In this document: positions 18,615 to 56,220 of the stretch, piece after piece
Layout of the letters: every line of letters begins with the position of its first letter
Position numbering within the stretch: position 1 is the stretch's first letter
NCBI RefSeq assembly: GCF_000516515.1
Contig: NZ_KI911784.1
Span: forward strand, 4,440,633 to 4,504,632
Reading direction: 5' to 3'
DNA from: Chloroflexus sp. Y-396-1
GTDB taxonomy: Bacteria; Chloroflexota; Chloroflexia; Chloroflexales; Chloroflexaceae
DNA: 64,000 nucleotides
Notes under the pieces: model-generated
Told to the model about the DNA's origin: nothing
Seen by the model: the letters and a program-made list of their open reading frames with translations, nothing else
Databases searched by the model: none
Position numbers and translations under genes: made by a program

Positions 18615-18623
18615 GAGATAGAT

Positions 18624-21687: not shown

Positions 21688-21689
21688 CC

Positions 21690-22694: not shown

Positions 22695-22845
22695 AGTATG
22701 TGTGAACACTTCGACGCCAGCACGTTGATCAGCTTAATCCTACATCGCACTTGGTGCGTGCGGCGTGTGTTGCCTCCGTACCTTAACAACCGAACATTGT
22801 GGGCGACATCGGATTCTCATCGTCGTAGCAAAAGGAGACTCTACC
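22695..22845. other. Gap separating interference and adaptation modules
   Basis: 150 bp, the only sizeable break within the cas genes. It includes a small hairpin (CGCAC-ttg-GTGCG) and may hold a separate promoter for cas1-cas2-cas4, though I cannot identify its elements. Confidence 0.35.
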
Positions 22846-23859: not shown

Positions 23860-23871
23860 CGGAGGTCAGCA

Positions 23872-24129
23872 ATGCAATGTCTTGTCATCTACGACATCCC
23901 CAACGATCGCGCACGGCAGCGGGTGGCTGATGCCTGTCTCGATTACGGCCTACAGCGAATACAATACAGCGCCTTTGCCGGTAATCTCAGCCGAACGCAT
24001 CAAAGGGCACTCTTCGGTGAAATCACCCGGCGGCTAAAGGGCTACACAGCCAACGTGCAGCTCTTCGTCTTCGATGCCAAAACGTGGAGTGAGCGCAAAA
24101 TTCTGGAGCAACAGTATGACGATGCCTGA
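23872..24129 (+). CDS. cas2: Cas2 integration partner
   Basis: 85 aa. MQCLVIYDIPNDRARQRVAD is the usual Cas2 opening with the conserved Asp in YDIP; then YGLQRIQYSAFAGNLS. It dimerises to bridge two Cas1 dimers and acts as part of the spacer ruler. Shine-Dalgarno GGAGG before ATG. It overlaps the cas4 start by 14 bp, so the two are translationally coupled. Confidence 0.96.
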   Translation: MQCLVIYDIPNDRARQRVADACLDYGLQRIQYSAFAGNLSRTHQRALFGEITRRLKGYTANVQLFVFDAKTWSERKILEQQYDDA

Positions 24130-24724: not shown

Positions 24725-24768
24725 AGTCGGCCTAAAACTGCCCGTATAAACAGTCGACTCGCAACTCG

Positions 24769-24803
24769 GGCATCAAAGGTCTTGTGTGAAGACCTTTGAT
24801 GCC
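24769..24803. promoter_or_regulatory. Perfect 15-bp hairpin in the leader
   Basis: Arms GGCATCAAAGGTCTT and AAGACCTTTGATGCC around GTGTG. There is no T run, so it is not a standard terminator for cas4; it could be a protein-binding or RNA element. Confidence 0.7.
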
Positions 24804-24920
24804 AAACACAAAGATTGCCTGATCGCAGCTTCAAGCATCAGAAAAGGATCAAAAGCATCTCGCAACTCGGTAGCGATTTCATGCAAACAACGAGTTGCGA
24901 CAGTGGAGCAATTCTCCCAC

Positions 24921-24948
24921 TTGCGCAGTATACGAAGAACGATATAAT
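24921..24948 (+). promoter_or_regulatory. Array promoter
   Basis: TTGCGC (24921-24926), 16-nt gap, consensus TATAAT (24943-24948). It would start the pre-crRNA about 75 bp before the first repeat. Confidence 0.6.
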
Positions 24949-25030
24949 GAACGTACAGGAAGGCTTATGAGGCGTCGGGAAAGCGGTACGAGGGCTAACA
25001 CAGCGAGGGAGAGGAAAAAGAGAGTATGGT

Positions 25031-31000: not shown

Positions 31001-34000
31001 GAAACTCGGCGGTCAAACGCGAACGAGACAGTGATCCGGCTTTCAACAATTTCGGCTCACGGTAGAGCACTGAAACTCTACTTTTCGGAACTGCCGAACA
31101 GCTTCTAATATACTTTCAACAATTTCGGCTCACGGTAGAGCACTGAAACCAGCACCCACAACACGAGTGCTGCGACGTCAACACAATCTTTCAACAATTT
31201 CGGCTCACGGTAGAGCACTGAAACCCGTGTACATGACCGCGTGCTCCCGCCACCAGCGGTCTTTCAACAATTTCGGCTCACGGTAGAGCACTGAAACTGC
31301 CTTCCCGCGCAAGCTCAACCAATTTTTGATCCTCTTTCAACAATTTCGGCTCACGGTAGAGCACTGAAACGTCAAAGAATATTTCAAAGTACGTAGCGTT
31401 GGTATCGTCACCTTTCAACAATTTCGGCTCACGGTAGAGCACTGAAACGTCGTTGCGACCAACGCGCAACAAAGCGCTGTTGTCTTTCAACAATTTCGGC
31501 TCACGGTAGAGCACTGAAACTGACCGGCGACTACTACTGCTGTTGGAAGTGGGCGGTCTTTCAACAATTTCGGCTCACGGTAGAGCACTGAAACTCGGCG
31601 GCGCATTGACGGGCGCTGCTGCGGCCGGATCTTTCAACAATTTCGGCTCACGGTAGAGCACTGAAACGTATTTCTACGGTGGAACACCGGTTGGGTTGGC
31701 CAGGACTTTCAACAATTTCGGCTCACGGTAGAGCACTGAAACCGCGGTCGTCGCTGCTCAACACGTCGATCTCGTCGACTTTCAACAATTTCGGCTCACG
31801 GTAGAGCACTGAAACTCCGCCATGCAAAACACCCCCGGCAACGAGCCGGGGCTTTCAACAATTTCGGCTCACGGTAGAGCACTGAAACGTTTTATCAAAG
31901 AAAACCAAGAGACGATAAAGGGACTTTCAACAATTTCGGCTCACGGTAGAGCACTGAAACTAAAGTACGCCAAATATTCACTGTTGACTTCCAACACTTT
32001 CAACAATTTCGGCTCACGGTAGAGCACTGAAACGCGATACGATCAGTGTGGCCAGGTGAAGACTCCGCCTTTCAACAATTTCGGCTCACGGTAGAGCACT
32101 GAAACCAACGTGAAGTCGATGAGCGAGTTATCCACACATTCGATCTTTCAACAATTTCGGCTCACGGTAGAGCACTGAAACTCCCTTGATCGATGCGCTC
32201 AACCGTCCCGACCAGCCACTTTCAACAATTTCGGCTCACGGTAGAGCACTGAAACAGCTTGGTGCATTCTACGAACTCGCGGCGGAGACGGCTTTCAACA
32301 ATTTCGGCTCACGGTAGAGCACTGAAACCTTGGCAGGAACAACGGAAACGTCGTCTCTGTTCCAGACTTTCAACAATTTCGGCTCACGGTAGAGCACTGA
32401 AACTGTCACCCGATGTTCGTTCGGTCACCTACACATTACCCTTTCAACAATTTCGGCTCACGGTAGAGCACTGAAACTAACGGTAGCGTTCAACGGGAAC
32501 GCAATTCCGGCTTCCTTTCAACAATTTCGGCTCACGGTAGAGCACTGAAACGTGACGAGACGTACCGAACACCGGAATACGGTATCGACTTTCAACAATT
32601 TCGGCTCACGGTAGAGCACTGAAACCCGCCAACGCTCCCTCATCCGTTGCCGTCCAATCTTCTTTCAACAATTTCGGCTCACGGTAGAGCACTGAAACGT
32701 GGTCGGGATATATGTCAGCGCGGTGCTGCTCATTGCCTTTCAACAATTTCGGCTCACGGTAGAGCACTGAAACTTTGTTCGAGTTGCTCGACGCGGCGGC
32801 GAATATCACGCTTTCAACAATTTCGGCTCACGGTAGAGCACTGAAACACGAAGAAAGGCCGGTTTGCTGGGTCAACGAGACGGCTTTCAACAATTTCGGC
32901 TCACGGTAGAGCACTGAAACAGGGTTCGATTGGGCGGCTGGAAGGTTTTGACTGGCTTTCAACAATTTCGGCTCACGGTAGAGCACTGAAACTTCCACGA
33001 GGAACGATCCGCAAGTCGGCTGTTGTGGGCTTTCAACAATTTCGGCTCACGGTAGAGCACTGAAACCGCTACCACCGCACCTGCGGCGACGATAATCGCG
33101 ACTTTCAACAATTTCGGCTCACGGTAGAGCACTGAAACCAGGTGCGGTGGTAGCGGGGGCGGCTGCACTGATTCGGCTTTCAACAATTTCGGCTCACGGT
33201 AGAGCACTGAAACTGCCCGCCGTCGCCTGAATCGGGCGCGGGTCGTCTACGACTTTCAACAATTTCGGCTCACGGTAGAGCACTGAAACGTGACACTCTT
33301 CCTCCTTCGGCGGTAGTAGCGTTTTCTTTCAACAATTTCGGCTCACGGTAGAGCACTGAAACATCGTGGGGATATACGTTTCGGCAGTTTTATTGACTTT
33401 CAACAATTTCGGCTCACGGTAGAGCACTGAAACTCCCCTGCCCAACATGGATCTACAGGGATGGGTACGCTTTCAACAATTTCGGCTCACGGTAGAGCAC
33501 TGAAACGTCACTGTCTCGATACCGCAGTGGACGTATCAACTCCTTTCAACAATTTCGGCTCACGGTAGAGCACTGAAACGATAAACCCGTTCGCGGGCGG
33601 CGAGGAAGTACGAAGACTTTCAACAATTTCGGCTCACGGTAGAGCACTGAAACTTTACACACAATCACACTTGACATCTTCCGGGAAGTCCTTTCAACAA
33701 TTTCGGCTCACGGTAGAGCACTGAAACGTTGGCGCGTCGGAGACTGAACAGAGCGCGGATCGCTTTCAACAATTTCGGCTCACGGTAGAGCACTGAAACT
33801 CCATTGCGCGTATTCGCCGTTAACGACCGCGTATAGCTTTCAACAATTTCGGCTCACGGTAGAGCACTGAAACCCTAAAATCCCGCCCCTTACGCCCACA
33901 ACGTTCGGCTTTCAACAATTTCGGCTCACGGTAGAGCACTGAAACAGGCGGGGATGGGCGTCGATGAGATGATCGAGCTACTGCTTTCAACAATTTCGGC

Positions 34001-37000
34001 TCACGGTAGAGCACTGAAACCTCCGGCCCAAATGACCGCCTTACGCGCCCAGATCGCTTTCAACAATTTCGGCTCACGGTAGAGCACTGAAACCTGAGCG
34101 GCTCATCGCGGAGTTGAGCGCTTTTTATCTTTCAACAATTTCGGCTCACGGTAGAGCACTGAAACACGGCGAAGAATTGGATATTCGTTCGGCGTTCAGG
34201 CTTTCAACAATTTCGGCTCACGGTAGAGCACTGAAACGATAAACCCGTTCGCGGGCGGCGAGGAAGTACGAAGACTTTCAACAATTTCGGCTCACGGTAG
34301 AGCACTGAAACACCGCGTTTCGTTGGTCAAACAGATGGCCGAGCGGTCTTTCAACAATTTCGGCTCACGGTAGAGCACTGAAACCGCAATGTCTCGCGAC
34401 GTCACGATCGTGTCGTTGACTTTCAACAATTTCGGCTCACGGTAGAGCACTGAAACATTCGGCCGCAAGTTCATAGAACGCTCCCAGCTCGGCGATCTTT
34501 CAACAATTTCGGCTCACGGTAGAGCACTGAAACTTTCACCGCGAGGCGTTTACACTCCTGAACAAAATAGCTTTCAACAATTTCGGCTCACGGTAGAGCA
34601 CTGAAACTCAACGAAAAAGGAACAAAGGCGGTTGTCGGGTACAACTTTCAACAATTTCGGCTCACGGTAGAGCACTGAAACCGCTGCTCGACGAGATCGA
34701 CGTGCTGAGCAGCGATGACTTTCAACAATTTCGGCTCACGGTAGAGCACTGAAACCGGCGTTCTCACCGACCAATTTGAAGGTGAAAACGATCTTTCAAC
34801 AATTTCGGCTCACGGTAGAGCACTGAAACGACTCGGATACGTTTTACCGTCAACACAAGGATCGTTTGACTTTCAACAATTTCGGCTCACGGTAGAGCAC
34901 TGAAACTGGTGGCTGCATGGGGCGCGCACGCTCGAGTTCGGCGCTTTCAACAATTTCGGCTCACGGTAGAGCACTGAAACCTTGCGCGACAAACCCGACT
35001 TCTTCTTGTTCGCAATCTTTCAACAATTTCGGCTCACGGTAGAGCACTGAAACACCATACCAAACCATCAACGCCCCCTCATCCGTCGCTTTCAACAATT
35101 TCGGCTCACGGTAGAGCACTGAAACGTTGTCTACCCCCACAAACACCGGCCCCGCAGACGGTCTTTCAACAATTTCGGCTCACGGTAGAGCACTGAAACA
35201 AACCATCAACTGAAACAACGGGAACGGAAACGAGGTCTTTCAACAATTTCGGCTCACGGTAGAGCACTGAAACACAAACGGTAGAATCGAAAGCCGCCCA
35301 AATTAGAACGATCTTTCAACAATTTCGGCTCACGGTAGAGCACTGAAACAAGTTAGGTCGAAAAAGATCGGAGTTCCGTAATCTCTTTCAACAATTTCGG
35401 CTCACGGTAGAGCACTGAAACTGCCTCGCGTTCCAACCGTCTCAGTTCCTGTTCTTCCTTTCAACAATTTCGGCTCACGGTAGAGCACTGAAACGAATAC
35501 TTTTACGTTCTAGTTTCCGTCTGCGTCTTCTTTCAACAATTTCGGCTCACGGTAGAGCACTGAAACCATAATTACGTTGGCCAAATTGGTTATCTGTTCG
35601 GCTTTCAACAATTTCGGCTCACGGTAGAGCACTGAAACCGTACTGCATCGCCGTTATCTGCTGCCGGATAAGACCGCTTTCAACAATTTCGGCTCACGGT
35701 AGAGCACTGAAACGTTCTCGCGGGCGTACTCGACGTTGACGCGGTGGTTTAACTTTCAACAATTTCGGCTCACGGTAGAGCACTGAAACTTAGGGAGAAG
35801 GTCGGTTCTATTCTCGTCACTTTGCTTTCAACAATTTCGGCTCACGGTAGAGCACTGAAACCTTCCCGTTTTACAATCGGTGGTGGCGGCAGTTGCGGCT
35901 TTCAACAATTTCGGCTCACGGTAGAGCACTGAAACACGGATGACGGTGATTTGTGACGGTGAAATCACCGCTTTCAACAATTTCGGCTCACGGTAGAGCA
36001 CTGAAACAGGTTGTGGTGGCCAACGACCTTATTTCGGTAACACTTTCAACAATTTCGGCTCACGGTAGAGCACTGAAACCGAGTGGGTGGAAGAAGGTTA
36101 CAAAAGTTATCCCTACTTTCAACAATTTCGGCTCACGGTAGAGCACTGAAACGAATTAGGACGGTGGCGGCGATTTCCAACAAAGTGACTTTCAACAATT
36201 TCGGCTCACGGTAGAGCACTGAAACTTTACCGTTCTTGCCCAGTGCACCGCCCTGGTTAGCTTTCAACAATTTCGGCTCACGGTAGAGCACTGAAACCGG
36301 CGTCTAACGCATCGTCATTCCTGACCGCCGGATCTTTCAACAATTTCGGCTCACGGTAGAGCACTGAAACTTCGCTCGACAAGGGGTCGGTTCGGTGAAT
36401 TTGTCCTTTCAACAATTTCGGCTCACGGTAGAGCACTGAAACCTTACTACTCCGCAAATGGATCGATAACAAAATCGTCTTTCAACAATTTCGGCTCACG
36501 GTAGAGCACTGAAACGTCGGTGTTTGCATCGATACGATCACCCGAATACCCTTTCAACAATTTCGGCTCACGGTAGAGCACTGAAACGTCGTTGCGACCA
36601 ACGCGCAACAAAGCGCTGTTGTCTTTCAACAATTTCGGCTCACGGTAGAGCACTGAAACGTTTCCGAAGTATGGCGGAAATTCTAAACCGATAGGCTTTC
36701 AACAATTTCGGCTCACGGTAGAGCACTGAAACTTTCGGTACCGTCGGCAGGGCCGGTGTTTGTGGGGGCTTTCAACAATTTCGGCTCACGGTAGAGCACT
36801 GAAACTATATACGGTCTTTTAACCGGCGCGGAGGTCGGGTGTCTTTCAACAATTTCGGCTCACGGTAGAGCACTGAAACTTTGGCAGGAACAACGGAAAC
36901 GTCGTCTCTGTTCCAGCTTTCAACAATTTCGGCTCACGGTAGAGCACTGAAACCGGCCGGGCTTCGCGTTGGTTTGCACGGAGCGTGACTTTCAACAATT

Positions 37001-40000
37001 TCGGCTCACGGTAGAGCACTGAAACTGTCGTTCGACGGATTCCGCGTCTGCTTTGTCGCCAACTTTCAACAATTTCGGCTCACGGTAGAGCACTGAAACA
37101 CCCGCAGTATTCGATCAGCGCGGTCGGGTATGCGAGCTTTCAACAATTTCGGCTCACGGTAGAGCACTGAAACGATCTGAACGATCAAGGTCGTAAGCGT
37201 CCGCGGTTCCTTTCAACAATTTCGGCTCACGGTAGAGCACTGAAACCTTATCCAACTTCAAGACGACCTCAATATTGCCGTTCTTTCAACAATTTCGGCT
37301 CACGGTAGAGCACTGAAACTCTCCGTGGCGCATCCCGCGCGGCGCGTCAGATACGCACTTTCAACAATTTCGGCTCACGGTAGAGCACTGAAACTGCGGG
37401 ACGTGGATCGTGTCTGTGACGTGGTGGGCGCCTTTCAACAATTTCGGCTCACGGTAGAGCACTGAAACGAACTTCGGGAAGTGGTCGGATGGCCACAATC
37501 AACCTTTCAACAATTTCGGCTCACGGTAGAGCACTGAAACACCACAATACTCTCGATGGCCTTCCAAACGCGGTCGAACTTTCAACAATTTCGGCTCACG
37601 GTAGAGCACTGAAACTCGCGATTGCGAAGAGGTCGGTGTACAGCGCGTCGACTTTCAACAATTTCGGCTCACGGTAGAGCACTGAAACCGGAGGTATTGA
37701 AATACTTCGCCGAACGCGGGTTTACTTTCAACAATTTCGGCTCACGGTAGAGCACTGAAACCCGATTCCAACAGCGGTGCGAAGGCGTCGATGACGCTTT
37801 CAACAATTTCGGCTCACGGTAGAGCACTGAAACCTGTTCGTTTTCGGCATATATCGAAGGACTGACCGACCTTTCAACAATTTCGGCTCACGGTAGAGCA
37901 CTGAAACGTTGCAAAACTCATACAAGCGATACTCGAAGCGTACCTTTCAACAATTTCGGCTCACGGTAGAGCACTGAAACTAGACTACCTCCCACCGACA
38001 ACAGCGCTTTGTTGCCTTTCAACAATTTCGGCTCACGGTAGAGCACTGAAACTTCTTGCGGCCTCGCGGAGGGTTGACTTCAGTCCGGCTTTCAACAATT
38101 TCGGCTCACGGTAGAGCACTGAAACTTGTCTGCTCTAGAGCGTTGTTGAACGACAATCCGGCTTTCAACAATTTCGGCTCACGGTAGAGCACTGAAACTT
38201 ACGGCCATCGAGCCGGAGGTTTTCGATTAGTCCACTTTCAACAATTTCGGCTCACGGTAGAGCACTGAAACCTGTGAGTTGGATAAGTGCGGCGCGAACG
38301 TCGGCCGACTTTCAACAATTTCGGCTCACGGTAGAGCACTGAAACCCGAAGCGAAATTCGATCAATGTCGCTGCGTAGGTTCTCTTTCAACAATTTCGGC
38401 TCACGGTAGAGCACTGAAACAAACCATAATCCCAATCCGTCGCCCTTCTCACTTTCACTTTCAACAATTTCGGCTCACGGTAGAGCACTGAAACTCTATA
38501 CGTACTGATGTTGTTGACCAAAATGGTTATATCTTTCAACAATTTCGGCTCACGGTAGAGCACTGAAACCATGCGGGGTGGAAATGCGTCTTTACGCAAC
38601 GCGACTTTCAACAATTTCGGCTCACGGTAGAGCACTGAAACCGATTGCTGTTGCGCAAATGGATCAACAGCAGGATCGTCTTTCAACAATTTCGGCTCAC
38701 GGTAGAGCACTGAAACCTTTGAAGGGGTTTGTGGTTGACGATACCTCCGAGCGGCTTTCAACAATTTCGGCTCACGGTAGAGCACTGAAACTCCCCCGTC
38801 CCTCGAACGAAAACCGAAGGAACGGCGACTTTCAACAATTTCGGCTCACGGTAGAGCACTGAAACATGACGATACCTTCCGAGTTCCGTTCCATCCGTTC
38901 ACCTTTCAACAATTTCGGCTCACGGTAGAGCACTGAAACACCGAGGTAGTTCGGGTTGTAGCTGCTTACCACCCGCACTTTCAACAATTTCGGCTCACGG
39001 TAGAGCACTGAAACGACAAAGGGCAATTCCGGTAGTTGCGGGAAGGGAAGACTTTCAACAATTTCGGCTCACGGTAGAGCACTGAAACCCCAGACTGGAC
39101 GGAAGAACGAATAGTGGAGGAGGTCTTTCAACAATTTCGGCTCACGGTAGAGCACTGAAACCCCGAACCGGCAACGCTGCGGGGAATAGACAGGAGGTCT
39201 TTCAACAATTTCGGCTCACGGTAGAGCACTGAAACTTGACGCGGCGGAGTCGTCATTGCGTTCGTTTCGCTTTCAACAATTTCGGCTCACGGTAGAGCAC
39301 TGAAACTTTTCGCCCGCAACAGGTTGTATGTGAGCCAGACGCTTTCAACAATTTCGGCTCACGGTAGAGCACTGAAACCGCGGCTAAAATCGGTAAGGAA
39401 TATAAAAAGACAACTTTCAACAATTTCGGCTCACGGTAGAGCACTGAAACTCTGCGTCTTTTAAACCCTTCAACCGGCGCAGAGGCTTTCAACAATTTCG
39501 GCTCACGGTAGAGCACTGAAACAACGCGCAGAAACGTTGTTAAACAGAGCGGCCGGCTTTCAACAATTTCGGCTCACGGTAGAGCACTGAAACGCGACAA
39601 AACACTGAAACCCTCCGAGCGTATTTCGGCTTTCAACAATTTCGGCTCACGGTAGAGCACTGAAACCTACCGGTGGTGGCGGGATCATGCAGTGATGTAC
39701 ACACTTTCAACAATTTCGGCTCACGGTAGAGCACTGAAACACGAGAGCCGCCTCAGTGAAAACCCAGAGTACGACTTTCAACAATTTCGGCTCACGGTAG
39801 AGCACTGAAACCCCGACCGACGTCGAATACTACCGCGACCTCGCGTTGACTTTCAACAATTTCGGCTCACGGTAGAGCACTGAAACAATCGATGAGGAAG
39901 GCGATTGTGAAGACTCGCGTGGCCTTTCAACAATTTCGGCTCACGGTAGAGCACTGAAACATTGCGAACAAGAAGAAGTCGGGTTTGTCGCGCAAGCTTT

Positions 40001-41205
40001 CAACAATTTCGGCTCACGGTAGAGCACTGAAACACTCGATTGTTGTCGCCGACCAAACTTTAGCCGGTCCTTTCAACAATTTCGGCTCACGGTAGAGCAC
40101 TGAAACCCAAGCGCCAACAACGTCACAGACACGATCTACATCACTTTCAACAATTTCGGCTCACGGTAGAGCACTGAAACTTCCGCACCGGAGGGTGTTG
40201 GGAACGCACTCGACTTCTTTCAACAATTTCGGCTCACGGTAGAGCACTGAAACTCCTTATCGGGAACAACGATAGAAGTGCCAAGCGGCTTTCAACAATT
40301 TCGGCTCACGGTAGAGCACTGAAACTCAACACAAGGATCGTTTGGCCGAAGGCGCGGTGGCTTTCAACAATTTCGGCTCACGGTAGAGCACTGAAACAGG
40401 GGTTGGAGGGAGCCGCGTTCGCCCTCCGCGAGGCCTTTCAACAATTTCGGCTCACGGTAGAGCACTGAAACGGATGTTTTTGCGTGCGGATGAGGCCATA
40501 CGCTAGCCCTTTCAACAATTTCGGCTCACGGTAGAGCACTGAAACTATCGGTATCAAGTGCGCAGACGGCAGCGTGCTCGACTTTCAACAATTTCGGCTC
40601 ACGGTAGAGCACTGAAACGCGGAAGTTCGATCAAACAGCGGGTTTCGCCAACCTCTACTTTCAACAATTTCGGCTCACGGTAGAGCACTGAAACGCTCAC
40701 CCTCATCACCCCAACCACCGCACTCGCCCCTTTCAACAATTTCGGCTCACGGTAGAGCACTGAAACCGGCGACCGTATCCTCGATCTCGGCCAGCACCTC
40801 GACTTTCAACAATTTCGGCTCACGGTAGAGCACTGAAACAGCAGACCCACCACCACCCGTAGCCGTCTCTGTAGCTTTCAACAATTTCGGCTCACGGTAG
40901 AGCACTGAAACAGCGTGAGGAACCGCCACGCGCGGTGACGCAAAACCTTTCAACAATTTCGGCTCACGGTAGAGCACTGAAACGCACCCAGACTGCACTA
41001 CCGACTCCGACGACGGCACCACTTTCAACAATTTCGGCTCACGGTAGAGCACTGAAACTGCCCGCCGACGCCTGAATCGGTCGCGGATCGTCTACCTTTC
41101 AACAATTTCGGCTCACGGTAGAGCACTGAAACCGGAACGGTCTGCAAGTCAACGATTGTGGGTGGAATCTTTCAACAATTTCGGCTCACGGTAGAGCACT
41201 GAAAC
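25031..41205 (+). repeat. Array block 1 (newest): repeats ending in C
   Basis: About 220 consecutive repeats whose last base is C. The next repeat, at 41243, ends in G. Confidence 0.95.
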
Positions 41206-41242
41206 CGCACATTGATCAAGTCCCAAACCCCACGTCTTTCTA

Positions 41243-44200
41243 CTTTCAACAATTTCGGCTCACGGTAGAGCACTGAAAGCCGGTGCGCGGGGGGTGACGT
41301 GGCGGGTGATGTTTACTTTCAACAATTTCGGCTCACGGTAGAGCACTGAAAGCGTATAGTCGTTGTGCTTTGTGATACGCGCCGTTTCTATCTTTCAACA
41401 ATTTCGGCTCACGGTAGAGCACTGAAAGCTAATGACAACGCCCCCTTTATCCCCTTAGCAGGAACCTTTCAACAATTTCGGCTCACGGTAGAGCACTGAA
41501 AGGCCAACGGAACGAACGACCGTCCGTCCGGTATCACCTTTCAACAATTTCGGCTCACGGTAGAGCACTGAAAGGTACCGCTCGGCAATCGCGGTTTTCT
41601 GTTCATAGTGCTTTCAACAATTTCGGCTCACGGTAGAGCACTGAAAGTCGATAACGAAAACCGTATTCGACCTTCTTCCGGTGGCTTTCAACAATTTCGG
41701 CTCACGGTAGAGCACTGAAAGAGCAGCGGTGCTGGGGGTGTTTTGCATGAGGAGGGTTATGCTTTCAACAATTTCGGCTCACGGTAGAGCACTGAAAGGA
41801 TCCGTCCCGATGCGTCGCCATCGCGAGCGGGTCGCTTTCAACAATTTCGGCTCACGGTAGAGCACTGAAAGGTGCAAGATGCGGCACCGGCGCCCACTCA
41901 AACGCGCTTTCAACAATTTCGGCTCACGGTAGAGCACTGAAAGCTCATCTCGCGGTGAGGGGGGTTGAGTGTGTGGAACTTTCAACAATTTCGGCTCACG
42001 GTAGAGCACTGAAAGGTGGCGGCTCCACGGGCAGCGTACGCTTGAGTACGGCTTTCAACAATTTCGGCTCACGGTAGAGCACTGAAAGACGAACTCGAAC
42101 GCATCGAGTCGATGCTCGACGACCTTTCAACAATTTCGGCTCACGGTAGAGCACTGAAAGACCAAAACTTCGCAACGCCTTCCTCGCCTATCCCCGCTTT
42201 CAACAATTTCGGCTCACGGTAGAGCACTGAAAGTACCCTACCCAATCTATATCGTCTACACACTCCACTTTCAACAATTTCGGCTCACGGTAGAGCACTG
42301 AAAGGTTGAAGGAAGAGGGGGTACCGGCCTTAGAGGCCATCTTTCAACAATTTCGGCTCACGGTAGAGCACTGAAAGTACTGCTATGAACGTCGGTGAAC
42401 TGTTTGCAACCCTACTTTCAACAATTTCGGCTCACGGTAGAGCACTGAAAGGCAAAGAAGCGCTCGAAGACGCTTTGAAGAAGTATCCTTTCAACAATTT
42501 CGGCTCACGGTAGAGCACTGAAAGCGGAACCGCCAGTATTGCGCGCTGGAGGTCGGCGAGAACTTTCAACAATTTCGGCTCACGGTAGAGCACTGAAAGA
42601 CGCTTGAAGGAATTGTTCGATTTCATCAATCACCACTTTCAACAATTTCGGCTCACGGTAGAGCACTGAAAGTTTGTTTGACGACCCGAACGTCTTCACT
42701 TCCGATCCCCTTTCAACAATTTCGGCTCACGGTAGAGCACTGAAAGACAACTCGCCGGTATTGCAACCCAACCGATCTTCGACTTTCAACAATTTCGGCT
42801 CACGGTAGAGCACTGAAAGTTCAACACAATCTTTCAGAGAGTGGCGGACGTTTAGCTTTCAACAATTTCGGCTCACGGTAGAGCACTGAAAGGCTCCGAG
42901 GTATCATCCACAACGAATCCTTTCAGAGCTTTCAACAATTTCGGCTCACGGTAGAGCACTGAAAGGGAGAACGGGCTGAAGTTCCTTGACGACGGCATTT
43001 ACGCTTTCAACAATTTCGGCTCACGGTAGAGCACTGAAAGCGTTGAGGTAGTGAAGAAAGAAGGCCAGATCGAACTGCTTTCAACAATTTCGGCTCACGG
43101 TAGAGCACTGAAAGCATATGGGGGATGCGCCGGACGGCGTTACGCTGCGTCTTTCAACAATTTCGGCTCACGGTAGAGCACTGAAAGACAATGAGCATCT
43201 GCTGACGACGGCCGAACTCGAGCCTTTCAACAATTTCGGCTCACGGTAGAGCACTGAAAGTTGTGGAGGTAAAGGCGCGGAAGGGTATGGTTTCCTTTCA
43301 ACAATTTCGGCTCACGGTAGAGCACTGAAAGACTTAGGAATCGACGGTATTGTCGGTGACGGTGAACTTTCAACAATTTCGGCTCACGGTAGAGCACTGA
43401 AAGAAGAGGTAAAACAACTTCGACAACGATTAGAACGCTTTCAACAATTTCGGCTCACGGTAGAGCACTGAAAGAAAGCAACAGGGTCTTGCGTCGTATC
43501 GACCAACGCACCTTTCAACAATTTCGGCTCACGGTAGAGCACTGAAAGTCACAAAACAAAGCACCGCGAGGAATTCAAATCCGAAACTTTCAACAATTTC
43601 GGCTCACGGTAGAGCACTGAAAGAAACCATCAAATCGAAATCTCCCCACCTCATCATGCTTTCAACAATTTCGGCTCACGGTAGAGCACTGAAAGAACGG
43701 GCCGATTACGGAACGACGGTACGAACGATCTTTCAACAATTTCGGCTCACGGTAGAGCACTGAAAGGCGCAAACGAATACGACCCAACCCCCCCTATCAC
43801 GCTTTCAACAATTTCGGCTCACGGTAGAGCACTGAAAGTGCACATGACGCGAACACGGTGACCGACCTCTAACCCTTTCAACAATTTCGGCTCACGGTAG
43901 AGCACTGAAAGCGTTGTACTCCCCGATCCGTGCCATGTGCGGCACCGCTTTCAACAATTTCGGCTCACGGTAGAGCACTGAAAGGCTCGTCAAGGGTCTT
44001 GACCGGCCGAGTGGGAACAACACCTTTCAACAATTTCGGCTCACGGTAGAGCACTGAAAGTCCCATGCAAAACACCCCCAGCAGAGATGCTGGGGCTTTC
44101 AACAATTTCGGCTCACGGTAGAGCACTGAAAGGGAAAGACAGACGCGAGTTGTATAGGGGCGCGTTGCTTTCAACAATTTCGGCTCACGGTAGAGCACTG

Positions 44201-47200
44201 AAAGTTCCACTACATCTTTGCCGGTGCTTCGTCATAAGACTTCTTTCAACAATTTCGGCTCACGGTAGAGCACTGAAAGCCGGATGTTCTTTCATTATAT
44301 CGCGACGGCGTTCGCCTTTCAACAATTTCGGCTCACGGTAGAGCACTGAAAGAATGGGAACAAATGGGTCTTTTCACCCCGCTCGGCCCCTTTCAACAAT
44401 TTCGGCTCACGGTAGAGCACTGAAAGCTGACTACTCATTGTTCCCTCCTTCTAGAACGCGCCTTTCAACAATTTCGGCTCACGGTAGAGCACTGAAAGGT
44501 CGGCGTCGATCAAACCGGTTCTTTCTGTTGGTTGGCTTTCAACAATTTCGGCTCACGGTAGAGCACTGAAAGTTCGGGAGCTGCTACGGTATATTCCCCG
44601 CGAAGGGTCTTTCAACAATTTCGGCTCACGGTAGAGCACTGAAAGCGTTGACGGCGTCGATAACGTCGGTGATGAGAACGACTTTCAACAATTTCGGCTC
44701 ACGGTAGAGCACTGAAAGCCAACTCGGCGATGAGCTGACTCTCACTCATTTCACTTTCAACAATTTCGGCTCACGGTAGAGCACTGAAAGGCGTACGCTG
44801 CCCGTGGAGCCACCACGGGACGCTCGCTTTCAACAATTTCGGCTCACGGTAGAGCACTGAAAGTTCAAGCGGTTGCCGAGGTCGTAGCAACCAAAATCAC
44901 TTTCAACAATTTCGGCTCACGGTAGAGCACTGAAAGCGAACGTTGCAGGGGTGGTTGATGATTTGGGCGTTTGACTTTCAACAATTTCGGCTCACGGTAG
45001 AGCACTGAAAGGGGCCGCCGCGCTCATCCGGCGCTTCATCCGGGCGGCTTTCAACAATTTCGGCTCACGGTAGAGCACTGAAAGACCATCCCCCCTTCAA
45101 CCATTCCCACCACAACCGTCCTTTCAACAATTTCGGCTCACGGTAGAGCACTGAAAGCTGCAACTTTTTCGGGCGGATGACGTATAATGAGCTTTCAACA
45201 ATTTCGGCTCACGGTAGAGCACTGAAAGTACACCCAAACTTGTTTTCCCTCCCCCCAGACGACCGCGCTTTCAACAATTTCGGCTCACGGTAGAGCACTG
45301 AAAGTGCAATGCGTCCTCCGTCGCGTGCGGTCATATATACTTTCAACAATTTCGGCTCACGGTAGAGCACTGAAAGATGCTATGACGTCGAAGTCGCCCC
45401 ACCTGAGGATCAAGCTTTCAACAATTTCGGCTCACGGTAGAGCACTGAAAGTGCGTAACGGGTAGTGCCATGCGTCGGCTGCTGCTGCCTTTCAACAATT
45501 TCGGCTCACGGTAGAGCACTGAAAGTTCAGAGTGCGTTTATCAATCTTGGGATCGTATACTCTTTCAACAATTTCGGCTCACGGTAGAGCACTGAAAGCG
45601 ATTCGTTGCGCCTTCGGGACTTTGTTATACATTCTCTTTCAACAATTTCGGCTCACGGTAGAGCACTGAAAGCTAGAATCACATGCTGACGAAGTTAACA
45701 AATACTGCTCACTTTCAACAATTTCGGCTCACGGTAGAGCACTGAAAGAGATTTGGTAAGACCGGTGTTTATGGCGTTGATGGCTTTCAACAATTTCGGC
45801 TCACGGTAGAGCACTGAAAGGTTTTTGAGTACGGTCACCGATTCACTCGCCAAACTTTTCTTTCAACAATTTCGGCTCACGGTAGAGCACTGAAAGTACA
45901 CGCGCGATTATTTCGCGATGTAGAGATCGGACTTTCAACAATTTCGGCTCACGGTAGAGCACTGAAAGAAAGACGAACCGGCGAAGTGGCGGAGTCTTCA
46001 CCTAGCCTTTCAACAATTTCGGCTCACGGTAGAGCACTGAAAGCGGTCGGGTGGTACGAAGTTCGTGTTACAGAGGACGACTTTCAACAATTTCGGCTCA
46101 CGGTAGAGCACTGAAAGCGTTCGGTACTTCGTCTGGGTTCGTTATGTATTTCACTTTCAACAATTTCGGCTCACGGTAGAGCACTGAAAGTTATCAGTCG
46201 TTGGCGGATTTCAGACCTTGCCCAATACTTTCAACAATTTCGGCTCACGGTAGAGCACTGAAAGCCAATTGGGCGTTCCCCATTCGTCAAGCAGCCGAGC
46301 TTTCAACAATTTCGGCTCACGGTAGAGCACTGAAAGAGTCGCTCTTGATTTGGGTTTCTACTTCAGGGCCTACTTTCAACAATTTCGGCTCACGGTAGAG
46401 CACTGAAAGTCTCACCCTGGCCACTCGTTCCACCGTACCCTACCCCTTTCAACAATTTCGGCTCACGGTAGAGCACTGAAAGCAACAGATTGTATGTGAG
46501 CCAGACGCCGAGTGATGCTTTCAACAATTTCGGCTCACGGTAGAGCACTGAAAGCTTCCACCCTCTTCACCCAACTCCCCCGACCCCGTTCGCTTTCAAC
46601 AATTTCGGCTCACGGTAGAGCACTGAAAGCACCGAACCGTCATCGTTGTATCAAGTGTATCTACCCTTTCAACAATTTCGGCTCACGGTAGAGCACTGAA
46701 AGACGAACCGCTCACCTCGAAGCGGAACCTGCCGTCGTCTTTCAACAATTTCGGCTCACGGTAGAGCACTGAAAGAACAACTCGGTCGGTTCCGCAATCC
46801 GGTCGAAAGCACCGCTTTCAACAATTTCGGCTCACGGTAGAGCACTGAAAGTCGATGCGATAAGGGAGGTCGAAGATGCTGGGAACACTTTCAACAATTT
46901 CGGCTCACGGTAGAGCACTGAAAGCGATGCGATCTCGGATTGGTGGGATCGCATCAGAGGTCTTTCAACAATTTCGGCTCACGGTAGAGCACTGAAAGTC
47001 AAGACATCTTACTGGTTCTGGTTCCCCAACCGCGCTTTCAACAATTTCGGCTCACGGTAGAGCACTGAAAGTTGCACACAATCACGCTCGACATATTCAG
47101 GGAGCTTGTCTTTCAACAATTTCGGCTCACGGTAGAGCACTGAAAGAAAGCAGCATATCTCTCCCTCTCGTCCCTCTCGATCACTTTCAACAATTTCGGC

Positions 47201-47510
47201 TCACGGTAGAGCACTGAAAGCGTTTCGTATTGACCTCGTTGAGGGAGCACCGGTGCTTTCAACAATTTCGGCTCACGGTAGAGCACTGAAAGGATATTTC
47301 AACAGTTGGTGGTCTGGCCCGCAACGATCTTTCAACAATTTCGGCTCACGGTAGAGCACTGAAAGACCAATCGCTGATGGATTTGTTCGTTCAGGACGCC
47401 CTTTCAACAATTTCGGCTCACGGTAGAGCACTGAAAGATCAGTGTTTCAGTCGAGAATAGCTTCTATACTAGGCTTTCAACAATTTCGGCTCACGGTAGA
47501 GCACTGAAAG
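41243..47510 (+). repeat. Array block 2: repeats ending in G
   Basis: About 86 consecutive repeats whose last base is G, with no exception seen. Confidence 0.95.
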
Positions 47511-47546
47511 GGATACAAAGCTGGAAATTAAATATCGAAAATGAAG

Positions 47547-49755
47547 CTTTCAACAATTTCGGCTCACGGTAGAGCACTGAAACGTGTACCAACTGAAGAA
47601 CACACCCCACGACGCAAGCTTTCAACAATTTCGGCTCACGGTAGAGCACTGAAACTGCAACCACTCCAGGTGGTACAGAACCTCATCCGTAGGCTTTCAA
47701 CAATTTCGGCTCACGGTAGAGCACTGAAACATGATACTGTTCTCCCTGCGCTACGAGGTATTGGCTCTTTCAGCAATTTCGGCTCACGGTAGAGCACTGA
47801 AACTCCTCGCATTTGGTTGTATATGTCGTGCATCATGTCTTTCAACAATTTCGGCTCACGGTAGAGCACTGAAACATCGGATTCCTCCAACGTTCTGGGT
47901 GATTCACGTGGACCTTTCAACAATTTCGGCTCACGGTAGAGCACTGAAACCAATACACTGGTCTTTCTCGCCGCCGATGAAACCCCTCTTTCAACAATTT
48001 CGGCTCACGGTAGAGCACTGAAACGCCAACGGCGATGGTGGGGATGGCCGGTCGGCGGACTTTCAACAATTTCGGCTCACGGTAGAGCACTGAAACCGTT
48101 TCTGACGGCGCTGCTGACAACCGGACGAATACCTTTCAACAATTTCGGCTCACGGTAGAGCACTGAAACTTCCTGCGGTGGGTCGGTGGCAAGCGTCTAT
48201 TGGTCTTTCAACAATTTCGGCTCACGGTAGAGCACTGAAACCCAAAAGCTGATCATTGTCAAGCCGTCGGCCCAGACGGCTTTCAACAATTTCGGCTCAC
48301 GGTAGAGCACTGAAACTTTTCGCCGCTCTCGTGGAGCGTGTTTCGCGATCTCCCTTTCAACAATTTCGGCTCACGGTAGAGCGCTGAAACTGTTGCTGTG
48401 CTGCTGCGGCAGCCGCAGCACCGCCGTCTTTCAACAATTTCGGCTCACGGTAGAGCACTGAAACCTGCTGGTCTCACGCAGCAACTCGTGATACTGGCCA
48501 ATCTTTCAACAATTTCGGCTCACGGTAGAGCACTGAAACCTTTATCGTCCGTTTCCGTCAGGAACAATGGGGACTTTCAACAATTTCGGCTCACGGTAGA
48601 GCACTGAAACAGGCAGATTGGGGCGGGCGGGCAGGCCCACCGGCGCACCTCTTTCAACAATTTCGGCTCACGGTAGAGCACTGAAACATTCTGTTCTCGT
48701 CCGAGACAGGGCAGGAATATAGCAACTTTCAACAATTTCGGCTCACGGTAGAGCACTGAAACGTGGTGGTAGTCCCTGGCGAGGATGGGATGTACGACTT
48801 TCAACAATTTCGGCTCACGGTAGAGCACTGAAACGTACACCCGCTTCCATCCCTACGTGGCGACGGAAGACTTTCAACAATTTCGGCTCACGGTAGAGCA
48901 CTGAAACTGAAACTCATAGCTGTGAAACTCTTCTTTCTCCATGGCTTTCAACAATTTCGGCTCACGGTAGAGCACTGAAACCGGATGCGGTACGGGGATG
49001 GATGTGGGAGCAGGTACCTCTTTCAACAATTTCGGCTCACGGTAGAGCACTGAAACCTGAACCTGCATAGGCGAGGCATAGGATATGAATCACTTTCAAC
49101 AATTTCGGCTCACGGTAGAGCACTGAAACGTCATCACGTCTACCCACGAATATTGAATTCAGACGACTTTCAACAATTTCGGCTCACGGTAGAGCACTGA
49201 AACCAATACACTGGTCTTTCTCGCCGCCGATGAAACCCCTCTTTCAACAATTTCGGCTCACGGTAGAGCACTGAAACTCGGGTATCAAAGGCTGCATTCA
49301 AGATGTCGATCCCACTTTCAACAATTTCGGCTCACGGTAGAGCACTGAAACTACAAGACCATGTCAACACGACAACGAATACGTGCCCTTTCAACAATTT
49401 CGGCTCACGGTAGAGCACTGAAACCACGGATGTCGGGTTGGGGAATAACCGTAGCCACATTGCTTTCAACAATTTCGGCTCACGGTAGAGCACTGAAACG
49501 CTTTCCGTGCTGCTGCTTGCCGTTGTTTCGTACTTAACTTTCAACAATTTCGGCTCACGGTAGAGCACTGAAACATGATTTTGTTTGAGGTGTGACAATG
49601 CAACCGGCACCTTTCAACAATTTCGGCTCACGGTAGAGCACTGAAACAGACGCCGAGACGCTCGGCCCACGTCGGGATCGTGACTTTCAACAATTTCGGC
49701 TCACGGTAGAGCACTGAAACTGCGTGCCGCCGTCATTGTCAGCGCCTGTACCGGC
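47547..49755 (+). repeat. Array block 3: repeats ending in C
   Basis: About 30 repeats with a last base C. It contains both internal point-mutant repeats (47767-47803, 48354-48390), neither of which spread to newer repeats. Confidence 0.95.
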
Positions 49756-50673
49756 CTTTCAACAATTTCGGCTCACGGTAGAGCACTGAAATGTTGTGAA
49801 GCAGTACAAGGGACGCCCGCGGGATTTGACTTTCAACAATTTCGGCTCACGGTAGAGCACTGAAATGTTCGTAGAACGTCGTCAGCTCACGGATGAGCTG
49901 CTTCCTTTCAACAATTTCGGCTCACGGTAGAGCACTGAAATATGGGCCGACAGGCTCGGCGTCTGGGCGGATTGGACTTTCAACAATTTCGGCTCACGGT
50001 AGAGCACTGAAATTCACGATCGTGAACATCCATACCGAGCTGTGTAGTTCTTTCAACAATTTCGGCTCACGGTAGAGCACTGAAATGTAATCGCAACTCT
50101 TCGCTTGATATGTCAATCGTCATCTTTCAACAATTTCGGCTCACGGTAGAGCACTGAAATTGGCCACCGGGATCGTCCCCGGCGCCACGATCGCGATTCT
50201 TTCAACAATTTCGGCTCACGGTAGAGCACTGAAATTTGATTTGGTACTACCGTTTCGTTTCGTCCAGGTCTTTCAACAATTTCGGCTCACGGTAGAGCAC
50301 TGAAATTGTACTGCTTCACAACCGGCAAGGTCAAAGGTACATTCTTTCAACAATTTCGGCTCACGGTAGAGCACTGAAATATGGATCATACCTCCCTTGC
50401 CCAACTCCTCCAAGTCCCCTTTCAACAATTTCGGCTCACGGTAGAGCACTGAAATGCTGGTCATCTCCGGCCCCACGCTCGGCTGGTACGACTTTCAACA
50501 ATTTCGGCTCACGGTAGAGCACTGAAATCCGACTGCATCGGGATCGAACCGGGGGTGCATCTCCTTTCAACAATTTCGGCTCACGGTAGAGCACTGAAAT
50601 ACTCACGGTCGTCGCTACTCAGCACGTCCACGTCGTCTTTCAACAATTTCGGCTCACGGTAGAGCACTGAAAT
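49756..50673 (+). repeat. Array block 4: repeats ending in T
   Basis: Thirteen consecutive repeats whose last base is T. Confidence 0.95.
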
Positions 50674-50708
50674 TCGTGAGTGCAGTGGGTTTGAGATAAC
50701 GCCGATAG

Positions 50709-53700
50709 CTTTCAACAATTTCGGCTCACGGTAGAGCACTGAAACTGGTATTACTACTACCAGGGTAGTGTCAACTGCTGCCTTTCAACAATTTCGGCTC
50801 ACGGTAGAGCACTGAAACCCCGCAGTCATCCCGACGGTGATTCGGATTCTTACCGCTTTCAACAATTTCGGCTCACGGTAGAGCACTGAAACTCTGGTGG
50901 TTCGTTCCAACTGGCGATGAGATCGGGCCTTTCAACAATTTCGGCTCACGGTAGAGCACTGAAACTCGATATCCATCGACTACATGGCGAACAATTCTTG
51001 GTCTTTCAACAATTTCGGCTCACGGTAGAGCACTGAAACCACTACTCCCGACGCCCCCGACGCGCCCTCATCCTCTTTCAACAATTTCGGCTCACGGTAG
51101 AGCACTGAAACATGCTGATCTCGGCTCTTCGACCTGGGGTGTACGATCCACTTTCAACAATTTCGGCTCACGGTAGAGCACTGAAACACGAGACACGCAA
51201 GGCGTGGATCGAGGCAGGCCATCTTTCAACAATTTCGGCTCACGGTAGAGCACTGAAACCGCGTTCTTCACATACCAACCCAAACCCCGATCGTCTTTCA
51301 ACAATTTCGGCTCACGGTAGAGCACTGAAACCACTTAAATTAGATCGTATCAACTTCGACCTATATGAGCTTTCAACAATTTCGGCTCACGGTAGAGCAC
51401 TGAAACTTCGTGAGTTATGACGACGCGGTCGAGTATGCCCGCCTTTCAACAATTTCGGCTCACGGTAGAGCACTGAAACACGAGACACGCAAGGCGTGGA
51501 TTGAGGCAGGCCATCTTTCAACAATTTCGGCTCACGGTAGAGCACTGAAACCCGGAAAGGGCTACAACAATTCGGTTGGGCAACGACTTTCAACAATTTC
51601 GGCTCACGGTAGAGCACTGAAACGTCAATCCCGACCCCGCTCGCTGCGAGGCCATCGCTTTCAACAATTTCGGCTCACGGTAGAGCACTGAAACTTTTGA
51701 TCCGCACCCTCCGCAACGGGTAGTCTATGCATCTTTCAACAATTTCGGCTCACGGTAGAGCACTGAAACAGAGCATGGACATCCAAACCACCCCATCGAT
51801 GAATACACTTTCAACAATTTCGGCTCACGGTAGAGCACTGAAACTTGAACGATTGCGGACCACACGGGTTTGTTCCCTTTCTTTCAACAATTTCGGCTCA
51901 CGGTAGAGCACTGAAACCTCATCTAAGAGAGGGGGTTGTGTGTGTGATGGGACTTTCAACAATTTCGGCTCACGGTAGAGCACTGAAACGTCAATCCCGA
52001 CCCCGCTCGCTGCGAGGCCATCGCTTTCAACAATTTCGGCTCACGGTAGAGCACTGAAACACCTGAAGCTTGCGCAGCGGGGTGGGGATGTCGTCGACTT
52101 TCAACAATTTCGGCTCACGGTAGAGCACTGAAACGCTAGAACTGTTTCGGGTCGTCTGGCTACGGGGTAGCTTTCAACAATTTCGGCTCACGGTAGAGCA
52201 CTGAAACGTAGTTGTGGCTGACGATGATGTTCGTGATGTTATTGCTTTCAACAATTTCGGCTCACGGTAGAGCACTGAAACGAGGGCGTTATTCCGTTTT
52301 TTGCTGCAATTGCCGGTCTTTCAACAATTTCGGCTCACGGTAGAGCACTGAAACTGCTTCCGGGATTATATGCATCGCAGGTAGGTGCGCCTTTCAACAA
52401 TTTCGGCTCACGGTAGAGCACTGAAACCGCACCGCTTGTAATATCCGCCGAGCATGTCGTTCACACTTTCAACAATTTCGGCTCACGGTAGAGCACTGAA
52501 ACTTGCGTTTCCAGATCGGACGCACGACCGTTATCAATCTTTCAACAATTTCGGCTCACGGTAGAGCACTGAAACTCGACAGATCGCATCACGGATGGCT
52601 GTGATCACCAAGGCTTTCAACAATTTCGGCTCACGGTAGAGCACTGAAACGAGGAAGGTCGGATACGGAGATCGGAGTCGGTGCCCCACTCTTTCAACAA
52701 TTTCGGCTCACGGTAGAGCACTGAAACTCGTCCAATACTATCGCGCAATGCGGTCAGCGCTTTCTTTCAACAATTTCGGCTCACGGTAGAGCACTGAAAC
52801 ATCCGGCCTCGATGACATCCATTACCTCCGCTCGGCTTTCAACAATTTCGGCTCACGGTAGAGCACTGAAACTGATGTCGTCATCGGTCAGGGATTGTCC
52901 CCATTGATCTTTCAACAATTTCGGCTCACGGTAGAGCACTGAAACTGCTTCCGGGATTATATGCATCGCAGGTAGGTGCGCCTTTCAACAATTTCGGCTC
53001 ACGGTAGAGCACTGAAACCGCACCGCTTGTAATATCCGCCGAGCATGTCGTTCACACTTTCAACAATTTCGGCTCACGGTAGAGCACTGAAACTTGCGTT
53101 TCCAGATCGGACGCACGACCGTTATCAATCTTTCAACAATTTCGGCTCACGGTAGAGCACTGAAACTCGACAGATCGCATCACGGATGGCTGTGATCACC
53201 AAGGCTTTCAACAATTTCGGCTCACGGTAGAGCACTGAAACTGCTGGCGCAGCGTGATGACGCTCGCGCAGCGCAGACTTTCAACAATTTCGGCTCACGG
53301 TAGAGCACTGAAACGTAAACTGCCCGTTGCATGGGCATAAGTGGTATAGACTTTCAACAATTTCGGCTCACGGTAGAGCACTGAAACGTACGCTCCTCGC
53401 CCTCTTGGTGGGAATACTCGGATGGCTTTCAACAATTTCGGCTCACGGTAGAGCACTGAAACATGACCACTCCGACCACCGCAATCAGCACGATAAGCAC
53501 TTTCAACAATTTCGGCTCACGGTAGAGCACTGAAACGCGCCGGATGTGTCGGTTGCATGGGAGATGCGAACGCCTTTCAACAATTTCGGCTCACGGTAGA
53601 GCACTGAAACTATTGCAGGCTATCCAGCACGTTCTTGGTTATCCGACTTTCAACAATTTCGGCTCACGGTAGAGCACTGAAACGTGAGAAAGGAATGATG

Positions 53701-55014
53701 CAATGAAAGATTATCGTGTTGCTTTCAACAATTTCGGCTCACGGTAGAGCACTGAAACGTTATTTGTTTCCAAATCGTCTTTAATGTTCTTAAGCTTTCA
53801 ACAATTTCGGCTCACGGTAGAGCACTGAAACGACGGGTGGTGAAGATCGACTTTCGGATGGTCAGTGTCTTTCAACAATTTCGGCTCACGGTAGAGCACT
53901 GAAACGCGATTCTCATCGCGTTGGCGAAAGAATACGGTTTTTCCGCTTTCAACAATTTCGGCTCACGGTAGAGCACTGAAACCTGCTTAGATTCCGGTCG
54001 AACACCAACGCCTGTAGGACTTTCAACAATTTCGGCTCACGGTAGAGCACTGAAACATTTGTCGTAGCGCGGTCTGGGCAAACTCGTTGGCCTTTCAACA
54101 ATTTCGGCTCACGGTAGAGCACTGAAACCGCTACCGACCTTGGTGGGGTATCCCCGTTCGGGGAAGACTTTCAACAATTTCGGCTCACGGTAGAGCACTG
54201 AAACATTTGTCGTAGCGCGGTCTGGGCAAACTCGTTGGCCTTTCAACAATTTCGGCTCACGGTAGAGCACTGAAACGAGTGGGTTTTAGATCACATTCAC
54301 AAACTGTTAGAGTCTTTCAACAATTTCGGCTCACGGTAGAGCACTGAAACTGCGTATCAGCACGGTGTACGGCGGCTCGGCAGGATACACTTTCAACAAT
54401 TTCGGCTCACGGTAGAGCACTGAAACAGATGCGTGTCATCTGGCAACCCGTGCCTCATCACGTCTTTCAACAATTTCGGCTCACGGTAGAGCACTGAAAC
54501 TTGTACTGCACCGGAAGGGCAGCAATCTCGGCAATGACTTTCAACAATTTCGGCTCACGGTAGAGCACTGAAACCGACATCTATCATTGCACGCCACTCG
54601 AGCTTGACCGCTTTCAACAATTTCGGCTCACGGTAGAGCACTGAAACCATTTTTCTGCTTGAGTTATTCAGGGTCGTCTGGCTGCTTTCAACAATTTCGG
54701 CTCACGGTAGAGCACTGAAACCGAACTCAACCTCGCGCAGGTCGTCGGCGGTAGGCGCCTTTCAACAATTTCGGCTCACGGTAGAGCACTGAAACACCCC
54801 CTCTCGCTTGAGGGGGGTTGAACTATTAGCTTTCAACAATTTCGGCTCACGGTAGAGCACTGAAACCCCGCTCAAACTTCGATCTTTTGTGCGTTGAGCG
54901 AGACTTTCAACAATTTCGGCTCACGGTAGAGCACTGAAACCGAACTCAACCTCGCGCAGGTCGTCGGCGGTAGGCGCCTTTCAACAATTTCGGCTCACGG
55001 TAGAGCACTGAAAC
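50709..55014 (+). repeat. Array block 5 (oldest): repeats ending in C
   Basis: About 59 repeats with a last base C, followed by the degenerate terminal repeat. Confidence 0.95.
52355..53204 (+). repeat. Four-spacer segmental duplication in the array
   Basis: Spacers in 52355-52613 recur in the same order in 52946-53204, offset 591 bp (eight units). Four different spacers separate the copies. Confidence 0.95.
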
Positions 55015-55142
55015 CTGCGGTGTATCACGCGGCAGTGGCTAACCGTTATGCACGCTTTCAACAATTTTGGCTCACGGTAGAGCACTGAAGTGGAACCCCG
55101 GAAAACCTTTGCGAACGACCATGAATTCTGCATACGATGGAA

Positions 55143-55449: not shown

Positions 55450-55453
55450 GACT

Positions 55454-56220
55454 GCCTCCAAGGTCTACGAAATGGGCGGATGATATAACAAACCGTTTGA
55501 TAGGCCGCAAAGTTACACCGTTTTGGCTCGGATTGCCTGCAATGGACGGTCTGGTGGTGCACGCTCCACGATTGCCTCCAAGGTCTACGAAATGGGCGGA
55601 TGATATAAGAAACCGTTTGATTGGCCGCAGAGTTACACTGTTTTGGCTTCGGATTACTACACTATGGCGGTGCGCGCTCCACGATTGCCTCCAAGGTCTA
55701 CGAAATGGGCGGATGATATAAGAAACCGTTTGATTGGCCGCAAAGTTACACTGTTTTAGCTCGGATTACTACGCTATGGCGGTGCGCGCTCCATGATTGC
55801 CTCCAAGGTCTACGAAATGGGCGGATGATATAAGAAACCGTTTGATTGGCCGCAGAGTTACACTGTTTTGGCTTCGGATTACTACACTATGGCGGTGCGC
55901 GCTCCACGATTGCCTCCAAGGTCTACGAAATAGGCGGATGATATAAGAAACCGTTTGATCGGCCGCAACGTTACACCGTTTTGGCTCGGATTGCCTGCGA
56001 TGGACGGTCTGGTGGTGCACGCTCCACGATTGCCTCCAAGGTCTACGAAATAGGCGGATGATATAAGAAACCGTTTGATTGGCCGCAGAGTTACACTGTT
56101 TTGGCTTCGGATTACTACACTATGGCGGTGCGCGCTCCACGATTGCCTCCAAGGTCTACGAAATGGGCGGATGATATAAGAAACCGTTTGATTGGCCGCA
56201 AAGTTACACTGTTTTTTGGT
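55454..56220. repeat. Tandem repeat, seven units of 112-120 bp
   Basis: Units begin (GCCTCCAAGGTCTACG) at 55454, 55574, 55687, 55799, 55912, 56032 and 56145; the last is cut at about 75 bp. Two unit types exist: ~113 bp and 120 bp, the latter with GGACGGTCTGGTGGTGCA. On the minus strand every unit carries GGAGG followed 5 nt later by ATG or GTG (for the last, partial unit this lies at its right-hand boundary). The conserved core includes GATGATATAAGAAACCG. Confidence 0.9.

Follow-up and report, generated by a model that had tools for sequence, protein, structure and literature searches.

The last base of the repeat in a type I-B CRISPR array of Chloroflexus sp. Y-396-1 changes in clean, inherited blocks, and we give an even chance to the explanation that we favour, namely that these blocks arose by one-base slips of the spacer-side Cas1-Cas2 attack, in which the first base of the incoming spacer replaced the last base of the repeat and was then inherited. 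The array lies in the window, by which we mean the whole stretch of 64,000 nucleotides that was analysed, and consists of 410 copies of a 37-base repeat (25031-55091). Read from the leader to the trailer, base 37 is C in 221 repeats, G in 86, C in 30, T in 13 and C in 59, after which comes a single degenerate terminal repeat. When the whole genome, a single contig of 4,890,986 bases, was searched with up to 3 mismatches to the repeat, 410 copies were obtained, the same number as in the window. The features of the locus are the following.

16014-24724, + strand: type I-B cas operon
16014-17504, + strand: Cas8b1/Cst1
17523-18614, + strand: Cas7/Cst2
18624-19361, + strand: Cas5
19339-21687, + strand: Cas3
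21609-22694, + strand: Cas6
22765-23859, + strand: Cas1
23872-24129, + strand: Cas2
24074-24724, + strand: Cas4
24725-25030, + strand: interval from cas4 to the first repeat, putative leader side of the array (judged from the side of the cas genes and the degenerate repeat at the opposite end)
25031-41205, + strand: newest block, 221 repeats ending in C
41206-41242, + strand: switch spacer G to C, the oldest one in the newest C block (a probable role, given polarised addition)
41243-47510, + strand: 86 repeats ending in G
47511-47546, + strand: switch spacer C to G
47547-49720, + strand: 30 repeats ending in C, including the two with single-copy changes
49721-49755, + strand: switch spacer T to C
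49756-50673, + strand: 13 repeats ending in T
50674-50708, + strand: switch spacer C to T
50709-55014, + strand: oldest block, 59 repeats ending in C
55055-55091, + strand: degenerate terminal repeat, with the end GAAGT

The genes beside the array are those of a type I-B system: Cas8b, Cas7 (Cst2/DevR), Cas5, Cas3 with HD, Cas6, Cas1, Cas2 and Cas4. The I-B Cas5t model scored 94.7 bits, just under its cut-off of 96.7, and the general Cas5 model scored above its own cut-off; Cas6 was recognised by Pfam only. Since the cas genes lie to the left of the array and the degenerate repeat to its right, the left was taken as the leader side and therefore as the newest end. This arrangement, together with the passing of variants to all later repeats, supports the idea, put forward in an earlier note made from the sequence, that repeats are copied at the leader side and inherit the changes of their template.

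The block order C, G, C, T, C is exact across the 409 non-terminal repeats. No exception was found at base 37 inside any block, and the observation that G- and T-ending repeats never stray into other blocks therefore stands; chance mixing of last-base variants is excluded by the same count. The blocks themselves had been placed correctly, save that the third (C) ends at 49720, since the previously given 49755 takes in the next spacer. The remaining 36 columns hold two changes among the 409 repeats, each in one copy (position 7 in the repeat at 47767 and position 30 in the repeat at 48354). Base 37 shows four inherited changes and no single-copy change; if changes were spread evenly over the 37 columns, four inherited ones at a single column would have P = 2e-5.

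The 409 spacers are mostly unique, and 11 are seen twice. Seven of these 11 exact duplicates fall in the oldest C block (51587-54977), where a run of four consecutive spacers starts at 52318 and recurs 591 bases further on, at 52909. The spacer pairs 8/148, 46/74 and 79/193 (counted from the leader, the first being 0) begin alike at the 5' end but extend to different lengths at the 3' end, which suggests that each member was acquired independently at one site with a fixed PAM end. Directly behind the array, at 55453-56215, lies a tandem repeat with a unit of about 113 bases.

The behaviour of the repeat edges was surveyed in 64 arrays of the class, each containing 10 repeats or more (5098 repeats; 76 were dropped as terminal or as having at least 4 mismatches). 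The arrays came from 100 stretches of up to 20 kb next to cas1 and from arrays found by their repeat, which is a partial sample of the cas1 loci. A change counted as inherited when it was flanked on either side by a run of 2 or more repeats, and the first columns of L064, L065 and L111, which vary at random, were set aside from the tally. The last column gave 10 inherited switches in 64 columns (4 arrays) and the first column 7 in 64 (4 arrays), as compared to none in 64 for both the second and the last-but-one columns and 15 in 2069 for the interior (9 arrays). The excess at the last column holds when the window is left out: 6 events vs. 0.43 expected (Poisson P 6e-6) or, counted by array-column, 3 of 63 vs. 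12 of 2197 (Fisher P 0.007).

The last-column events are distributed over the window array (4), array L072 of genome G001 (4), array L074 of genome G002 (1) and the I-B array L038 of G001 (1). L074, whose repeat is similar, shows one clean switch, with A in 99 repeats and then C in 119. L072 adjoins the type III-A genes Csm1, Csm3, Csm4 and Csm5; its last base only toggles between C and G, up to the oldest end, although the spacers of this array begin with all four bases. The repeat of L072 has no sister array in G001, its 91 copies all lying in one array. In L038 the changes stand near the old end, where T (two repeats), C (one), T (one) and G occur ahead of a fourfold 222-base unit; this unit (about 15631-16556 on the reverse complement) consists of four identical copies, each with part of the repeat. 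In three further Chloroflexus arrays that share the I-B repeat of the window, the last base is constant (181 copies in G002, 309 in G003 and 21 in G006), and G004, G005 and G007 contain only one or two copies of the repeat, at contig ends. No exact spacer was shared between the window and the main arrays of G001, G002, G003 and G006 or the stub in G004. In the other classes of the phylum, 40 stretches with 29 detected arrays gave no inherited first- or last-base switch (1442 repeats, 31 dropped, with a few arrays counted twice; block-like columns just outside the under-extended L183 and L214 were excluded as lying inside a longer repeat). Last-base switching is thus confined so far to one genus, where it occurs in a I-B and in a III-A system.

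Some further arrays vary at their edges in other ways. The first repeat base of L048 (G039), read from newest to oldest, is G in 35 repeats and C in 11; it then mostly changes over 39 repeats, and long runs of T follow, as if precision at the leader-side edge had been lost and then regained. Another array of the Y-396-1 genome (L070, at 3.10 Mb) has C/T blocks and single changes at its first repeat base. In the newest eight repeats of L080 (G060) the end GAAAC becomes GAAC (seven copies) or GAAT (one), which we read as a deleted A or a two-base slip. A contig assigned to an Omnitrophota MAG (L148, 1-110) also has two repeats of the window's family at one end, owing to contamination or transfer.

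According to the explanation that we favour, in a normal round Cas1-Cas2 would attack both outer edges of the leader-proximal repeat and 37 bases would be duplicated; that the full 37 bases are copied is supported by the way in which base 37 is inherited. Occasionally, the second, spacer-side attack would fall one base short, so that 36 bases would be duplicated and place 37 of the new leader-proximal repeat would be filled by the base with which the incoming spacer begins. Provided that inner motifs fix the cut site by their distance from it, later rounds would return to copying 37 bases, and every subsequent repeat would carry the captured base until the next slip. The G and the T of the window would then probably be of phage origin. 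A leader-side attack one base inside the repeat would instead cost the older copy its first base, a loss that would not be handed on.

Since a spacer-side slip would alter the new copy and a leader-side slip the older one, the last column should be rich in inherited changes and the first in single-copy changes. This is what was found, with 27 single-copy and 7 inherited changes in the first column as compared to 7 and 10 in the last (P 0.011), a difference that weakens to P 0.17 without array L048. A slip also predicts that the spacer acquired at the switch is one base short; the mean deviation was -0.54 over 19 events in five arrays, which is no significant shortening (P 0.11). The interior and the two next-to-edge columns show inherited and single-copy changes in a ratio of 15 : 34, that is, more inherited ones than time-dependent mutation predicts, so that part of the edge excess is not specific to the edges. 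Slips in the opposite direction, which would duplicate one base too many, are rejected, given that 101 of 408 spacers share their first base with the next spacer and 103 are expected to do so.

What a captured base would meet in the course of interference could be read from a relative, Chloroflexus islandicus (G003), whose array has the same repeat as the window and in which all 309 regular repeats end in C. An IMG/VR phage contig (L157/L158, 3300043543_000422), which carries terminase, portal and endolysin genes, surfaced through two copies of this same I-B repeat. Seventeen spacers of G003 match it at E 1e-5 or better, at 16 different sites and with up to 7 mismatches. The flank 5' of the protospacers is (A/G)CCN, as is proper to type I (A/G in 16 of 17, C in 13, C in 16, then any base), and was read from the spacers of G003, those of the window having yielded no such target. 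Base -1 of the 17 targets is G in six, T in five, C in three and A in three. Considering that this base varies while the repeats of G003 end in C, base 37 of that array is copied and not taken from the PAM; with C at -1 in only 3 of 17, the G003 spacers give no sign of a duplicon of the E. coli type with a PAM-derived last base. The earlier proposal that base 37 stands opposite the free N of a CCN flank is borne out by these 17 spacers of the relative and their 16 target sites. The array has AA at -3 and -2 for every base 37, where the target has CC, and therefore base 37 appears to play no visible part in self-recognition. A captured base would then not obviously be removed, facing the free N and leaving the AA of the array as it is.

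The phage contig itself contains a mini-array (L157, 188-298) with two exact Chloroflexus I-B repeats and one spacer, which gave no other match of useful length in the sequences compared. Several spacers of G002, like many of G003, target the same contig. The window array gave no match to the phage collection (near mode). In IMG/VR, exact parts of 21-23 bases likewise gave no match, whether taken from two twice-acquired spacers of the window or from three of its four switch spacers. When 30-base parts of the four switch spacers were searched with up to 3 mismatches in 131 genomes of the class, only the window array itself was recovered. A captured base was accordingly never seen in a phage target, which is a point against the slips. 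A search of IMG/VR for array fragments by a fixed-spacing repeat pattern gave none.

The double return to C had been considered suspicious on the evidence of the window. This suspicion gained support from four Chloroflexus arrays taken together, in which 10 of 11 exits from non-C states lead to C, with about 0.38 expected for each (P 4.5e-4), or 5 of 6 without L072 (P 0.03); in the window array alone the bias is not significant (joint 0.13). The count was made by hand. Three changes that adjoin terminal or end repeats, in the window, L038 and L070, were omitted from it; all three would have counted as returns to C. Returns to C therefore exceed what random slips predict. If the blocks are due to slips, the returns would be partly a matter of chance, considering that 111 of the 409 spacers begin with C, and might be aided by a preference of Cas1 for G on the attacked strand.

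The same excess over four arrays would be accounted for by splicing of sister arrays, which we consider doubtful but worth serious weight. Strains would carry the same 36 bases ending in C, G or T, and recombination between repeats would have joined the blocks; the insertion of a block ending in G or T between C repeats would make both borders at once, and the return to C would need no second change. Splicing seems in fact to occur in the class, since in the second array of L053 (G060) the switches of three interior columns lie no more than one repeat apart, in a crossover-like manner. The toggling of L072 between two states up to its oldest end is also in keeping with it. Nevertheless, splicing leaves unexplained both the origin of the G and T variants and the greater variation of the edge columns. 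Moreover, none of the 11 exact duplicate spacer pairs of the window crosses a block border and the genome has no second array of this repeat. The five blocks do not differ in spacer length or GC, a weak point against splicing; for the same reason we reject the idea that different machinery made each block.

Slips of the spacer-side attack must also be weighed against mutation, be it ordinary or due to gap filling, at the base of the repeat that is under the least constraint. Errors would occur in every column; selection would clear those damaging to the crRNA or to integration, and changes at position 37 would survive and be copied. The free N opposite base 37 in the relative is in favour of this possibility, as is the fact that repeats of this kind from related species share a constant CTGAAA, which is followed by C, T (L060) or G (L064) as the last base; interior columns, too, have inherited changes. 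Still, we regard it as unlikely. A neutral site should give far more single-copy than inherited changes, older repeats having been exposed for longer, and the window has none of the former and four of the latter. We use this argument with caution, given that interior columns likewise have too many inherited changes. Furthermore, the edge excess appears at both ends of the repeat and is absent from the neighbouring columns, and transitions make up 3 of 10 changes at the last base vs. 9 of 15 in the interior, as random replacement predicts, although the difference is not significant (P 0.23). The earlier view that plain mutation of a neutral base is an easy explanation is thus not supported in that form, and the survey points to a process specific to the edges.

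An assembly or consensus artefact is very improbable: long repeats are hard to assemble, but the blocks follow the array order, similar blocks are found in two more assemblies (G001 and G002), and a consensus error respecting the block edges is unlikely because the array lies on one contig and most of its spacers are unique. Finally, it is scarcely credible that each new spacer brings the last base with it from its PAM side, as is known for type I-E (according to the relevant part of PMC10011333), and that the blocks reflect a changed choice of PAM; this idea is refuted for the G003 array by its target flanks and is at odds with blocks free of exceptions in the window.

If slips of the spacer-side attack did produce the blocks, natural arrays would allow the accuracy of Cas1-Cas2 to be gauged over hundreds of acquisitions without an experiment; the window would contribute 4 visible switches in about 408 acquisitions. 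Errors at the two edges of the repeat would be distinguishable and array segments could be ordered in time. Slips would also help to explain why the last base differs between related species while the preceding bases are constant, and would make the last base unfit for defining repeats or the kinship of arrays. A more general reading, which we hold at a little less than even, is that the repeat end evolves by capture, with slipped phage bases being inherited by up to hundreds of repeats. Long arrays would then be an ordered log of integrase errors, in which spacer-side slips appear as last-base blocks and leader-side slips as unshared changes of the first base.

Control of integration by a ruler, spacer-derived last bases in type I-E and polymorphism of the terminal repeat are already known, as far as the relevant sections of the papers cited below describe them. 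Within open-access full text, to which the search extended (subscription papers, including the main I-B ruler paper, being outside its scope), we found no description of a last repeat base that changes in inherited blocks.

Regarding E. coli type I-E, the pertinent section of PMC10011333 describes the last repeat base as being physically the first base of the incoming spacer, and the likeness to our proposal is that a base counted as repeat is the first base of captured DNA. The difference is that in E. coli every acquisition brings such a base, which the PAM determines, whereas in the window the base is normally copied and the proposed swap, unconnected with the PAM, would accompany roughly one acquisition in a hundred.

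The repeat variants within arrays and the recombination between repeats that are treated in parts of PMC8047081 and PMC4466440 resemble our case in that variants occur inside an array and recombination may join them. In those descriptions, however, the variants mostly belong to the last repeat, the others being rare internal ones, and long inherited last-base blocks are absent.

A further likeness is to the type II-A ruler of S. thermophilus, where distance determines the position of the second attack, which can move by a single base with the leader side remaining exact. As the relevant section of PMC6895254 reports, one-base indels upstream of the ruler move the spacer-side site by one base in vivo, and ruler control in types I-E and I-B is cited there as well. 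Another section of the same paper states that replacement of the G attacked on the bottom strand, at the last position of the repeat, lowers the efficiency at the second site and that the change of the last base left the specificity of attack unaffected; repeats ending in G or T thus need not slip more, to the extent that type II-A is a guide. If the strands are read alike, this G would correspond by analogy to C on the repeat strand here, and its effect could favour the return to C. The shift of the type II-A ruler was obtained with engineered repeats, whereas the slip proposed for the window would be a natural one, read from the array alone.
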